In this document: positions 3,741 through 60,467 of the stretch, in pieces | Layout of the letters: the number at the start of each line of letters is the position of its first letter | Position numbering within the stretch: the first letter of the stretch is position 1 | NCBI RefSeq assembly: GCF_009649955.1 | Contig: NZ_CP045875.1 | Span: 2,696,501-2,760,500, forward strand | Length of the DNA: 64,000 nucleotides | Direction of reading: 5' to 3' | From: Heliorestis convoluta | GTDB taxonomy: Bacteria > Bacillota > Desulfitobacteriia > Heliobacteriales > Heliobacteriaceae | Position numbers and translations under genes: made by a program | The notes under the pieces: generated by a model | What the model was told of the DNA's origin: nothing | Database searches by the model: none | Seen by the model: the letters and a program-made list of their open reading frames with translations, nothing else

Positions 3741-3935
3741 CTTTCCCTGATTACGTTGGGGGTACTTCATAGAGGGGCCAGGTCACAACAAGCAAAATAT
3801 ATCTGGGTCAGGCCTTATTCCTTCCTGGAGAGAGGACTTCAGACCTCAGCCATCGGCAGCTACGCTGCCGCTCATGGCGTGGGATGAGTCCGTTCGGAAG
3901 GAATGAATAAGGCCTGACCCCACCACAAAATAACC
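3741..3935 (+). repeat. Composite repeat, copy 1 (B hairpin only)
   Basis: Shares its left flank with copy 2 (ATTACGTTGGGGGTACTTCA and GAGGGGCCAGGTCA) but then jumps straight to CAACAAGCAAAATATATC and the B hairpin at 3805-3921. The A hairpin and linker are missing, as if deleted between two GTCA repeats. Outer B stem: GGGTCAGGCCTTATTC with GAATAAGGCCTGACCC. The rest of the 3604-3964 gap should hold the copA promoter; I see no clear -35/-10 pair. Confidence 0.85.
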
Positions 3936-9702: not shown

Positions 9703-9771
9703 TTTGAAAAACCTCCCATAATTCAATACATTCTTTCTTTACCGCTCTTGCTTTTTACCTATGAATCAGCT

Positions 9772-9799
9772 ATGCCCAGTTGGGCACAACCAACGATGA
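9772..9799 (+). repeat. Short palindromic repeat (TGCCC-n-GGGCACAACC family)
   Basis: TGCCCAGTTGGGCACAACC followed by GATGAA. The same 28-35 base unit recurs at 12327, 21478, 53068, 53323 and 53377, several times next to the large composite repeat. Here it lies in the aroF leader downstream of the T-boxes. Confidence 0.7.
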
Positions 9800-9871
9800 A
9801 ACGAGTTGCCAAGCGAATCGTACCTGTGCACTGCAAATGCCACCGTACCATTGCATACCACCATAGAATGA

Positions 9872-10093: not shown

Positions 10094-10380
10094 ATCAAAA
10101 AAAGCTTTTCATCCCTACAGGGACGAAAAAGCTTTTGCTTATCGCGTTACCACCCTGGTTAATCCATAAAAGGATTCACCTCAATCAAAGAGCACGGGAA
10201 AAGAAGGTACCATTCCGATACTCCCTTCCTTGTAACGTCGGAAGATGACGGCATAACCTACTTGCCACCAAGGTGTGGGTTCAGTTAGCAGCTTCAGAGG
10301 GAACTTCAGCCAGTCATGCTTTGAAAGCGCTCTCAATCTATGACGCTTCCTCCCTGTAAAGCTGTTTCTTGCTTACTTTT
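10094..10380 (-). promoter_or_regulatory. T-box leader 1 (distal) of aroF
   Basis: A second complete T-box on the minus strand: long bulged stem I (CAGCTT/AAGCTG, GGGA/TCCC, GTCAT/ATGAC at about 10290-10380), T-box core AGGGTGGTAACGCG at 10145-10155, and terminator hairpin AAAAGCTTTTTCGTCCC...AGCTTTTTTT ending near 10098. The core differs from leader 2 (GGTAACGCG against GGTACCGCG). Specifier codon not assigned. Transcription would pass both leaders before reaching aroF. Confidence 0.88.
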
Positions 10381-10576
10381 CTCTTTCATTGCTTTTATCA
10401 TTTTGAAGTTATATCCAATTTAGCATAGTCTCTAGCAAAATTCAAGAAAAAATCACGATGATTTGCAGGAAATTTTCCCTGTCATCAGGAAAATGATCTA
10501 TGTCCCAAAAGGATCAATTTGCTTGTTACTTTTTTCTGTTTTGAAAGCAGAAGTAGAAAAACTGGAGGTGCTGCTG

Positions 10577-21413: not shown

Positions 21414-21477
21414 TGTATAGCGCCTCCATATAAAAGTGGCCTTAGAAAAAAGGGCCATGTAATTTTTCATTCCCCCA

Positions 21478-21505
21478 TGCCCGGTCGGGCACAACCAGTG
21501 ATGAA
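21478..21505 (+). repeat. Short palindromic repeat (TGCCC-n-GGGCACAACC family)
   Basis: TGCCCGGTCGGGCACAACC with GATGAA downstream, 40 bases before composite copy 2. Perfect arms GCCC/GGGC around GGTC. Confidence 0.75.
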
Positions 21506-21519
21506 AAAAAGCTTTTCCT

Positions 21520-21922
21520 GATTACGTTGGGGGTACTTCATAGAGGGGCCAGGTCATCACGCTTTCCTCCGCTCTGGACTGGTCCCACGCTGTTACCGCC
21601 AGCAAGCTGGCGACAGCTGAGGTCCCAAGTCCCGCTCCGGAAAGCGTGATGCCCAGGCCCAGAGAGTTTTTACTGATTGTTACTCCCATTGACATTGCTT
21701 TGGGCAACTTTCTGCTATGTATACGCAACTGTCTATTGTATTTGCAATAGGCCCAAACCCAGTCTCAACCAGCAAGATGTACCTGGGGCAGGCGTTATGA
21801 CTTCCTGGAGAGAGGACTTCAGACCTCAGCCATCGGCAGCTTGCTGCCGCTCATGGCGTGGGATGAGTCCGTTCGGAAGGAATTCATAACGCCTGACCCC
21901 ACCACAAGGTAGCTATTTTCCT
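21520..21922 (+). repeat. Composite repeat, copy 2 (A and B hairpins)
   Basis: Full copy. A hairpin 21545-21660 (minus orientation), B hairpin 21785-21900 (plus), joined by a 122-base linker containing CTATTG-TATTTG-CAATAG and ending CCAGCAAGATGTACCTGG. Tail GTAGCTATTTTC. Occupies most of the 21414-22197 gap. Confidence 0.92.
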
Positions 21923-22088
21923 GCTATAAACAAGAGATTCGACAGTATATCCTTTTAACCTCGTTATTTTCTCATAGTCTCGTCCCTTAAAACAAGTTGT
22001 AATGTAGATTTTTTATGATAGCGGAAAGGTTTTACTGTGATCTTGTATCTTCTATGCTTCTACGACAGGATGTGCGTTATTTAAATCT

Positions 22089-31251: not shown

Positions 31252-31665
31252 GCACGGACGATAGAGTAACCTTGTAGAGGGGACTGGGCATCACGCTTTC
31301 CTCCGCTCTGGACTGGTCCCACGCTGTTACCGCCAGCAAGCTGGCGACAGCTGAGGTCCCAAGTCCCGCTGCGGAAAGCGTGATGCCCAGTCCCAGAAGG
31401 TTTTTGCTGATTGTTACTTCCGTTGGAATAGCTTGGCGAAACTTTCTTCTATACGCAACTACCTATTGTATGTGCATCTGGAATAGGCTCAAACCCAGTC
31501 ACAACCAGCAAGATGTATCTGGGTCAGGCGTTATGACTTCCTGGAGAGAGGACTTCAGACCTCAGCCATCGGCAGCTTGCTGCCGCTCATGGCGTGGGAT
31601 GAGTCCGTTCGGAAGGAAATCATAACGCCTGACCCCACCACAGAGTAGCTATTTTCGTATTAGCC
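31252..31665 (+). repeat. Composite repeat, copy 3 (A and B hairpins)
   Basis: A hairpin 31279-31395 (minus), B hairpin 31521-31636 (plus). The A outer stem is perfect here (GGGACTGGGCATCACGC with GCGTGATGCCCAGTCCC). Tail GTAGCTATTTTCGTATTAGC and a truncated TGCCCGG repeat follow. Confidence 0.92.
31279..31395 (-). ncRNA. Candidate structured RNA, type A (representative)
   Basis: Read on the minus strand: 22-bp outer stem, then the core GGACT-T-GG ... CC-AGTCC enclosing GACCTCA and GTGGGA, which in turn enclose stem GCTGT-CGCCAGC-TT-GCTGGCG-GTA-ACAGC. The same core is found in type B with different but still paired stem bases. Also at 21545-21660, 40811-40926 and 53477-53595. Whether it is transcribed is unknown. 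Confidence 0.6.
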
Positions 31666-40796: not shown

Positions 40797-41185
40797 AAGA
40801 TAATTGTGCAGGGGCCAGGTCATCACGCTTTCCTTCGCTCTGGACTGGTCCCACGCTGTTACCGCCAGCAAGCTGGCGACAGCTGAGGTCCCAAGTCCCG
40901 CTGCGGAAAGCGTGATGCCCAGGCCCAGAGATTTTTTGCTGATTGTAACTCCCATTGGCACTGCTTTGCATAACTTCCTGCTATGTCTACATAACTGCCT
41001 ATTGAATTTGCAATAGGCCAAAACTCAGTCACAACCAGCAAAATGTACCTGGGTCAGGCCTTATTCATTCCTGGAGAGAGGACTTCAGACCTCAGCCATC
41101 GGCAGCTACGCTGCCGGCTATGGCGTGGGATGAGTCCGTTCGGAAGGAATGAATAAGGCCTGACCCCACCATCAAGCTATTGCCA
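40797..41185 (+). repeat. Composite repeat, copy 4 (A and B hairpins)
   Basis: A hairpin 40811-40926 (minus), B hairpin 41051-41166 (plus). The B outer stem is a perfect 21 bp and uses the GGCCTTATTC/GAATAAGGCC version, as in copy 1, where copies 2, 3, 5 and 6 use GGCGTTATGA/TCATAACGCC. Fills most of the 40718-41262 gap. Confidence 0.92.
41051..41166 (+). ncRNA. Candidate structured RNA, type B (representative)
   Basis: Outer stem of 21 bp (GGGTCAGGCC... with ...GGCCTGACCC), then core GGACT-T-CA ... TG-AGTCC enclosing GACCTCA and GTGGGA, then stem GCCAT-CGGCAGC-TAC-GCTGCCG-GCT-ATGGC. Core loops equal those of type A while stem bases covary. Also at 3805-3921, 21785-21900, 31521-31636, 53173-53288 and, degenerate, 53725-53838. 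Transcription not shown. Confidence 0.6.
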
Positions 41186-48884: not shown

Positions 48885-48975
48885 ATAGCTACCTTGTGCT
48901 GAGGTCAGGCGTTATGAATTCCTTCCCAGGAATTCATAACGCCTGACCTAGGTACATCTTGCTGGCTGTGCCCGA
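48885..48975 (-). repeat. Composite repeat, minimal reversed copy (copy 7)
   Basis: Reads as the reverse complement of a B unit: GAAAATAGCTACCTTGTG, then perfect 20-bp hairpin 48903-48948 with loop TTCCCA, then GGTACATCTTGCTGG. The whole inner core of about 70 bases is missing, leaving only the outer stem. Lies 3' of topB and may act as its terminator. Confidence 0.88.
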
Positions 48976-52914: not shown

Positions 52915-53067
52915 AACAATGAAAAAAACAAAAAAGCTACAAACCAACAAGCGATGACTTGGCACCAGAAAGAGAAAACTATAAAATGAACCTCTACCCA
53001 TAGCATTGCTAGCAAGGCCACATGGAATAAAGCCTCCGAAAAGAAAACAAACTAAACTAACCAGTCA

Positions 53068-53310
53068 TGCCCGGTTAGGCACAACTTGGCGAAACTTTCT
53101 TCTATCCGCAGCTACCTATTGTATTTGCAATGCAATAGGCCAAAACTCAGTCACAACCAGCAAGATGTATCTGGGTCAGGCGTTATGACTTCCTGGAGAG
53201 AGGACTTCAGACCTCAGCCATCGGCAGCTTGCTGCCGCTCATGGCGTGGGATGAGTCCGTTCGGAAGGAATTCATAACGCCTGACCCCACCACGGGGTAG
53301 CTATTTTCGT
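53068..53310 (+). repeat. Composite repeat, copy 5 (B hairpin only)
   Basis: Starts with a TGCCCGGTTAGGCACAAC palindrome joined directly to the linker (GGCGAAACTTTCTTCTAT), so the A half is absent. B hairpin 53173-53288. The linker hairpin is TTTGCAATGCAATAGG, lengthened by a CAATG duplication relative to other copies. Confidence 0.9.
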
Positions 53311-53322
53311 GTTAACCCCCCA

Positions 53323-53408
53323 TGCCCGGTCGGGCACAACCAAAGATGAAAATTCTATTTTCGTACTAACCAGTCATGCCCGGTTGGGCACAACCAAAGA
53401 TGAAAATT
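53323..53408 (+). repeat. Two tandem short palindromic repeats
   Basis: TGCCCGGTCGGGCACAACC and TGCCCGGTTGGGCACAACC, each followed by AAAGATGAAAATT, 54 bases apart. Placed between composite copies 5 and 6. Confidence 0.8.
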
Positions 53409-53445: not shown

Positions 53446-53865
53446 TTATCACACTGACGATAGAGTAACTTTGCAGAGGGGCCAGGTCATCACGCTTTCC
53501 TCCGCTCTGGACTGGTCCCACGCTGTTACCGCCAGCAAAGCTGGCGACAGCTGAGGTCCCAAGTCCCGCTGCGGAAAGCGTGATGCCCAGTCCCAGAGGG
53601 TTTCTACTGATTGTTACTCCCATTGGCATTGCTTTGCGTAACTTTCTGCTATGTTTAAGCAACTACCTATTGTATGTGCATTTGCAATAGGCTCAAACCC
53701 AGTCACAACCAGCAAGATGTACCTGGGGCAGGCGTTATGACTTCCTGGAGAGAGGACTTCAGACCTCAGCCATCGGCAGCTTGCTGCCGCTCATGGCGTG
53801 GGTAGGACCTTCGGAAGGAATTCATAACGCCTGACCCCACCACAAGGTAGCTATTTTCGTACAAA
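53446..53865 (+). repeat. Composite repeat, copy 6 (A hairpin and degenerate B hairpin)
   Basis: A hairpin 53477-53595 with mixed outer arms (CCAGGTC on the left, CCCAGTCCC on the right) and an extra A in its apical loop. B hairpin 53725-53838 has GGGTAGGACCTTCGG where other copies have GGGATGAGTCCGTTCGG, so the inner GGACT/AGTCC pairing is broken. Confidence 0.9.
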
Positions 53866-59350: not shown

Positions 59351-60467
59351 GCCTGGGACTTTTTATCGTGGCACATGTTTTATTTTCCAAAGAAGTCGAG
59401 AACTAGGTTTGGTTTCAGACGACATAGCCGTATATTGTGCACTTGAGTCAAGGGCACGAGGCGGTGAATGTTTTCCGTCGTATGAAACGATAGCGAACGA
59501 TGCAGGTCTATCTCGCCGAAAAGCGATTCTAGTAGTCAAAAAATTAGTCGAAAAAAACGTAATCAAGATCGACAAAAGGTACAATGGAGATGGCCAAACG
59601 TCCAATCTATACACCTTGATCGATAGTTCGCTATGGGGAGGGAGTGCACAGCATGCACCCCCTAGTGAACAGCATGCACCCCCTAGTGCACAGCATGCAC
59701 CCCCTAGTGAACAGCATGCACTACCCCTAGTGCACAGCGTGCCCCCTCCTAGTGCACAGCGTGCACCCGAACTAAACGAATATAACAATACCAAGGTTAA
59801 CAACAAGATAGATGATGATAGAGCCTTGAGTAATTCGCTTGTAGATATTATAGAGCAATCCTTCAAAAAGTCGTTTGGACAAGACCAAGATCTATCAAAA
59901 CAGCAAGCAAACAATTTAGCATTGTTAGCTACAAAAAAAGGTATTATCACAGAAGATATTTCGAGCATCATGATCGAGTGTGCTATAGCGGCACCGAAAA
60001 ATCCAGCACGTTATTTGTTGCAAGTTTTGAAGAACTGGACAAGAGAAAAAGAAAAAAGGGCAAGCACTCTACAGCCCACCCCTACAAAAGAAAAACTTGA
60101 ACTTGTTTCTTCTAATACTTCAATAGATAAACCCAAAAAACCTTCTCAAAACCCTGAAATTGAAATGTTGACTTCATATTATCGGGATAAATTTGTAAAA
60201 ACGTTTAAGGCAGAGCCAAACATTGGTGATAACGACAAAAAAATAGCGAATGAACTACTGAAAAGCCGTTCCCTAGAAGAGCTAAAGAAATTGATGGACA
60301 AATGGTTTGGGAAAAAAGATGACATTTACACGTGGAAAAACGGCGATTTATACAGTTTCTCAAATATGATCAACAAGCTTCTATCCATGCCCCAAACACC
60401 ACCACAGCCACAGAACTACTACCAAAAGCCAAGCGGTATCGCATCCACAAGTGATCAATTTTGTTAA
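59328..60467 (+). CDS. DnaD-like replication initiator with embedded repeats
   Basis: 379 residues. N-terminal winged helix (HTH_36-like: FPSYETIANDAGLSRRKAIL) suited to origin binding, a linker of repeated QHAPPS units (residues ~105-150), and a C-terminal helical domain (TSYYRDKFVKTFKAEPNIGD ... KLMDKWFGKKDDIYTWKNGD) like phage replisome organisers and DnaD/DnaB2 proteins. Directly followed by a DnaB helicase and DnaC loader, the standard phage initiation order. The linker DNA holds six 21-23 base iterons and may be the origin. ATG behind AAAGGAG. Confidence 0.88.
   Translation: MVKKQTYEPGTFYRGTCFIFQRSRELGLVSDDIAVYCALESRARGGECFPSYETIANDAGLSRRKAILVVKKLVEKNVIKIDKRYNGDGQTSNLYTLIDSSLWGGSAQHAPPSEQHAPPSAQHAPPSEQHALPLVHSVPPPSAQRAPELNEYNNTKVNNKIDDDRALSNSLVDIIEQSFKKSFGQDQDLSKQQANNLALLATKKGIITEDISSIMIECAIAAPKNPARYLLQVLKNWTREKEKRASTLQPTPTKEKLELVSSNTSIDKPKKPSQNPEIEMLTSYYRDKFVKTFKAEPNIGDNDKKIANELLKSRSLEELKKLMDKWFGKKDDIYTWKNGDLYSFSNMINKLLSMPQTPPQPQNYYQKPSGIASTSDQFC
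59643..59773 (+). repeat. Six iteron-like direct repeats, candidate replication origin
   Basis: Units of 21-23 bases starting at 59643, 59664, 59685, 59706, 59729 and 59751, consensus AGTGCACAGCATGCACCCCCT. Each has palindromic GTGCAC or GCATGC cores; GTGCAC and GTGAAC units alternate. Located inside the initiator gene, as in several phages of Gram-positive bacteria. Confidence 0.8.

Follow-up and report, generated by a model that had tools for sequence, protein, structure and literature searches.

The repeats described here probably constitute a new family of non-coding, non-autonomous mobile elements, MITE- or REP-like in kind, with hairpins selected for their structure and mobilised in trans. 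The copies are dispersed, their base pairing is under constraint and, in two relatives of Heliorestis convoluta, they have terminal repeats, duplicate the hairpin at their target and carry modular cargo. The unit is a long imperfect hairpin, in which a variable outer stem is predicted to enclose a conserved core; its length is ~120 bases in H. convoluta and ~115–145 nt across the family.

Ten copies of the core in the window

Within the 64,000-nucleotide stretch of DNA analysed here (the window), the core pattern was found ten times, compared to 0.02 occurrences expected from dinucleotide shuffles, which confirmed the repeat family proposed in an earlier, sequence-only reading. A type A hairpin (21544–21662, minus strand; outer stem CATCACGCTTTCC/GGAAAGCGTGATG) and a type B hairpin (21784–21902, plus strand; outer stem GGCGTTATGA/TCATAACGCC), both with the conserved core, matched the description given there. 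Further type A hairpins were located on the minus strand at 31278–31396, 40810–40928 and 53477–53594, and type B hairpins on the plus strand at 31520–31638, 41050–41169 (outer stem GGCCTTATTC) and 53724–53840, the last being the partner of the copy at 53477–53594. Two type B hairpins on the plus strand stand alone, at 53172–53290 and at 3804–3923 (outer stem GGCCTTATTC); at the latter, hairpin A has been deleted and its flank is fused to a remnant of the spacer. At 48899–48950 (minus strand), a type B outer stem has lost its core and forms a perfect hairpin. Lone copies are at least partly deletion products, as seen at 3804 and 48899–48950. The window copies are placed between genes.

The window also contains other features. 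A small palindromic repeat, CATGCCCGGTNGGGCACAACC, was observed in separate copies at 9751–9804, 53056–53085 and 53301–53408, as well as at the left edge of the composite unit described below. A T-box leader at 10116–10398 (minus strand) scored over the Rfam gathering threshold, and at 59643–59721 a 21-bp in-frame tandem repeat lies in a predicted replication-type protein adjoining a DnaB helicase gene.

Copy number and composite unit in H. convoluta

The genome of H. convoluta HH comprises 3,218,981 bp (PMC7143216). On its single contig, the exact core occurred 132 times and the reversed control pattern did not occur. A covariance model built from the ten window copies gave at least 148 matches among 150 candidates scored, with one palindromic site counted on both strands. 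Hairpins follow one another as A(−)...B(+) or as B(−)...A(+), and close neighbours were oriented −+ in 61 cases, −− in one and +− in one. The gap from hairpin to hairpin was 118–142 nt in nearly all pairs, typically ~125 nt.

Alignment of 58 pairs with 520-nt flanks revealed a conserved composite unit of ~460 bp, in which hairpins A and B, separated by a spacer, lie between a left flank, preceded by the small palindrome CATGCCCGGTNGGGCACAACCA, and a right flank extending to near CTATTTTCG. Around the first A/B pair of the window this unit spans approximately 21475–21927. Its left flank (21475–21543, with the small palindrome CATGCCCGGTCGGGCACAACC) and right flank (21903–21927, CACAAGGTAGCTATTTTC...) are conserved in the 58-pair consensus and have approximate boundaries, while the spacer (21663–21783) is conserved genome-wide in the paired unit and has no open reading frame; none of at least 100 aa was found in the whole stretch from A to B. 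The ~460-bp unit would be the amplified form in H. convoluta, with the diverged hairpins A and B facing each other in inverted orientation. In genomic copy 2796286, an A core was found inside a B outer stem.

This arrangement, with inverted pairs, intergenic placement in the window, more than 100 copies and a fixed hairpin foot, has the same layout as the REPs described in PMC3733652. It would suit a REPIN- or BIME-type element, that is, a pair of inverted palindromes that a REP-associated tyrosine transposase (RAYT) moves as single-stranded DNA, but we regard this as a distinctly improbable account of the family. The only Y1 transposase found in H. convoluta belongs to the IS605 type, a tnpA with a tnpB-like frame behind it; no copy of the element adjoins it, and no Y1 transposase was found in Heliobacterium chlorum or Heliobacterium mobile; among the Heliobacteriaceae carriers examined, RAYT was absent from most. 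In the genome G007, three Y1 genes were detected, none adjacent to an element. Further, REP palindromes measure 20–40 bp, and the present hairpins are 3–4 times longer.

Covariation of the conserved fold

The core consists of a GGAC/GTCC stem, an internal loop, a CCG/CGG-type stem, a T/NTAA bulge and a capped stem of 6–7 bp. Between types A and B, the two-sided stem differences reported in the sequence-only reading were all recovered (GCTGT/ACAGC vs. GCCAT/ATGGC, CGCC/GGCG vs. CGGC/GCCG and GG/CC vs. CA/TG), as were three distinct outer stems among the window copies. A set of 24 cores drawn from three genera had 92.7% of its cells paired and 61 changes on both sides of a pair, compared to 14.8 after shuffling. 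In 32 cores from five families, 99.4% of helix cells were paired, 10 of the 15 pairs had changed on both sides, and 55 such changes were counted vs. 10.6 in the shuffled sets; since the shuffle controls keep the relatedness among copies, these counts are to be read as strong covariation rather than as formal probabilities. The outer stems behaved similarly in Heliorestis acidaminivorans, where the 5′ outer arm differs in each of nine copies: an arm paired with its own partner at 12.0 of 14 positions, compared to 7.6 across copies and 6.0 after shuffling. The proposal that a dispersed element without a protein has its structure under constraint was thus borne out over a much wider alignment than the one from which it had been drawn.

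The same proposal had taken the loops GACCTCA and GTGGGA to be constant. They are so within the Heliobacteriaceae only; in other families, parts of these loops are now paired (e.g., GCATCC/GGATGC and TTTCGC/GCGAGC), and the common unpaired parts are CAG...CGT and T/NTAA.

Covariation in palindromic repeats is a known pitfall in the calling of structured RNAs, where selection on RNA has to be told from correction at the DNA level. Template switching or hairpin repair might rewrite both arms of a near-perfect long palindrome at once, so that covariation would arise unselected. Rewriting events do occur in this family, as witnessed by the core-less perfect hairpin at 48899–48950, by arm inversions and by mosaic copies. 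The covarying core helices, on the other hand, adjoin internal loops that are kept unpaired and are conserved across families, and template correction is disfavoured because it would erase such loops. We therefore consider unselected covariation improbable and retain selection on structure as the preferred reading. The family in this respect offers a natural data set for the question of whether covariation in palindromic repeats reflects selection on RNA or correction at the DNA level.

Distribution among relatives

Within the Heliobacteriaceae, the element was also found in H. acidaminivorans (10 matches), H. chlorum (5) and H. mobile (5), and it was absent from five further genomes of the family. 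These three were the only named species besides H. convoluta retrieved with the strict core pattern from ~85,000 species. A broader core model (R2), based on three genera and leaving out the outer stems, matched 10 of 398 genomes, H. convoluta included, and identified multi-copy relatives with full hairpins in four other families of the phylum (f34, f37, f45 and f93). The matches in a further family (f139; locus L286, genome G446) consisted of the core only, in a tandem array with ~90-bp spacing.

Empty sites for the window copies were sought by synteny with H. acidaminivorans, and gene order is broken at those points. In H. chlorum and H. mobile, nine matches lie directly 3′ of the end of the 23S rRNA gene, in sense orientation (one of these 23S ends is partial), and the post-23S spacer is occupied in some rRNA operons and empty in others, which is indirect evidence for insertion. 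An interpretation of the element as a regular constituent of rRNA operons was rejected, as only some operons of H. chlorum and H. mobile carry it and the checked operons of H. convoluta are without it. At the corresponding post-23S site of H. acidaminivorans (L059 and L083), a different, GGGGTCAGACCCC-type hairpin was observed.

With regard to a phage, plasmid or viral origin, BLAST searches gave no match. In viral contigs, a loose pattern gave 109 matches, none of them convincing by the model among the 80 loci scored (best E 0.076), and a tighter core pattern gave none.

Duplication of terminators by a 142-bp element

In two of the relatives (G191 and G449), the hairpin sits in a 142-bp element with the ends CAGACCGTNGACAAA...TTTGTCTACAAGCTG, which form 15-bp imperfect terminal inverted repeats. 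The terminal-repeat pattern matched 68 times in G191, compared to two matches for the reversed pattern. Beside both ends of these elements lies the same stem-loop, differing between loci, that resembles an intrinsic terminator; removal of the element in silico leaves one ordinary terminator (e.g., at L287, AAAAAAAGCGCATGCGCGCTT and then ATTTTT). At a match score of at least 12, flanking duplication was detected for 20 of 34 elements vs. none of 1122 cross-locus pairings. Nearly all duplicated flanks directly abut the element ends, and the duplicated stem-loop covers 16–28 bp, its length following that of the stem-loop. At a few loci, L339 and L345 among them, the two terminator copies were seen to differ by compensated base pairs, suggesting that both copies may still work.

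The same ends also enclose unrelated interiors in G191 (L328, L330, L334 and L345; about 201 and 265 bp). Since shared ends carry unrelated interiors, it is the ends, not the core, that define the mobile unit in G191 and G449. Core orientation is inverted relative to the element ends at L290, L293 and L295. Two side observations were made in G191: at L328, L332, L334 and L345, the different interior, at 264–408 bp, holds large hairpins and the terminator duplication is mostly retained; and at L330, L331, L333, L335 and L298, hairpin elements have an extra insert of ~60 bp in one arm, with GGGGACA/TGTCCCC inverted repeats. No pair of ends 0.5–3 kb apart was found in G191, and none of the 2.5-kb stretches at seven end-matches, scanned for end matches only, contained a larger element bounded by these ends.

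No flanking duplication beyond background was detected in the Heliobacteriaceae, neither for the copies of H. acidaminivorans, H. chlorum and H. mobile nor for the H. convoluta pairs. In the latter, flanks of the same copy matched in 12 of 59 cases vs. a background of 9%, because the repeat ends are shared. Terminal inverted repeats were likewise not seen in Heliobacteriaceae copies, and the mode of insertion in this family may differ from that in G191 and G449.

RNA or single-stranded DNA

A sense-strand RNA should tolerate G-U mismatches better than A-C mismatches. Among distinct isolated outer-stem mismatches, we counted 12 G-U and 8 A-C in the Heliobacteriaceae, and 11 G-U and 3 A-C in other families (one-sided p 0.03), giving a ratio of ~23:11 for the outer stems overall and ~27:14 with the core. 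In the core helices themselves, counting every distinct copy again directly gave 4:3, below the 5:1 obtained from alignment A4. This G-U excess weakly favours RNA over single-stranded DNA. Further, the copies that follow the 23S rRNA gene in H. chlorum and H. mobile are likely to be transcribed, as predicted from their position.

These data invite an explanation in which the core functions as RNA and the element uses RNA for its spread in the manner of a bacterial SINE, a reverse transcriptase making the copies at terminators and target-primed reverse transcription producing duplications of variable length. The rich, covarying internal structure, the lean towards G-U (more pronounced outside the Heliobacteriaceae than inside), the sense orientation of all nine post-23S copies and the 16–28-bp range of the duplications are in its favour. 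The G-U lean is modest, however, even with the core included; defined terminal inverted repeats with unrelated cargo suggest recognition of DNA ends; and at three loci the core and the ends have opposite orientations. Spread through RNA therefore appears unlikely. The full version of this idea, a bacterial SINE in which a structured RNA moves through an RNA intermediate, lands on terminator hairpins and duplicates them by means of a reverse transcriptase acting in trans, seems quite unlikely.

A model for insertion at terminators

Under the preferred reading, the two relatives carry the hairpin as cargo of a 142-bp element whose insertion sites are intrinsic terminators. The mobilising enzyme would be provided in trans and would cut each strand at the foot of the target hairpin, and fill-in after cutting would result in the duplication of the terminator hairpin. 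Retention of the element’s own hairpin may reflect its recognition, or its tolerance, when single-stranded, either as DNA in transposition or as RNA once transcribed. No mobilising enzyme was detected.

As a trace of transposition, the duplication of a complete terminator hairpin, without a fixed length, is unusual, and literature searches gave no match for terminator duplication by small repeats. By inserting in this way, an element could enter 3′ regions and leave gene ends intact. The signature also suggests that the enzyme recognises hairpins and not sequence.

Comparison with known systems

A structured element that is common to several bacterial families yet absent from Rfam 15 is rare. 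The search suggested in the sequence-only reading, which had likened the element to the HEARO/IsrB omega RNAs, gave no match to any family, RF02033 included, even at E ≤ 10 on a 701-bp stretch. A stand-alone guide resembling the omega RNAs of HEARO/IscB/IsrB would share with the present element a structured and mobile nature, its size and the lack of a protein of its own. The absence of an Rfam match stands against such a guide, and no RRXRR (IscB/IsrB) protein was found in 12 element-bearing genomes, although the control genomes likewise gave no match. The link is therefore unsupported, and we consider it highly improbable.

REP, BIME and REPIN elements with their RAYT are similar in being intergenic palindromes in inverted pairs, which in the present family applies to H. 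convoluta only (61 −+ pairs). They differ in that the hairpins described here comprise 115–145 nt with a multi-loop core, rather than 20–40 bp. Some REPs have been described within larger palindromes, CGTC-type REPs occur without a transposase, and the text of this 2013 survey names no Firmicutes (PMC3733652).

Bacterial MITEs are likewise short, without an open reading frame and present in many copies, and the copies of G191 and G449 share with them terminal inverted repeats and a duplicated target. In contrast to the fixed length of the MITE target duplication, the duplicated target here is a whole terminator stem-loop of 16–28 bp; the interior is a conserved, covarying hairpin, and the parent insertion sequence was not found. 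The bcr1-type repeats of the Bacillus cereus group, of which Bcr1 is listed at 167 bp (PMC2267715), are alike by description in mobility, size and conserved fold, and differ, again by description, from a family that spans several bacterial families and shows terminator duplication.

The element behaves like a MITE or a REPIN but, by the tests applied, can be filed as neither: for a MITE, no parent transposase was found at the end-matches examined in G191, and for a REPIN, RAYT and hairpin size do not fit. We conclude that these structured mobile repeats form a new family, of a familiar kind but unusual in structure, breadth and choice of target.
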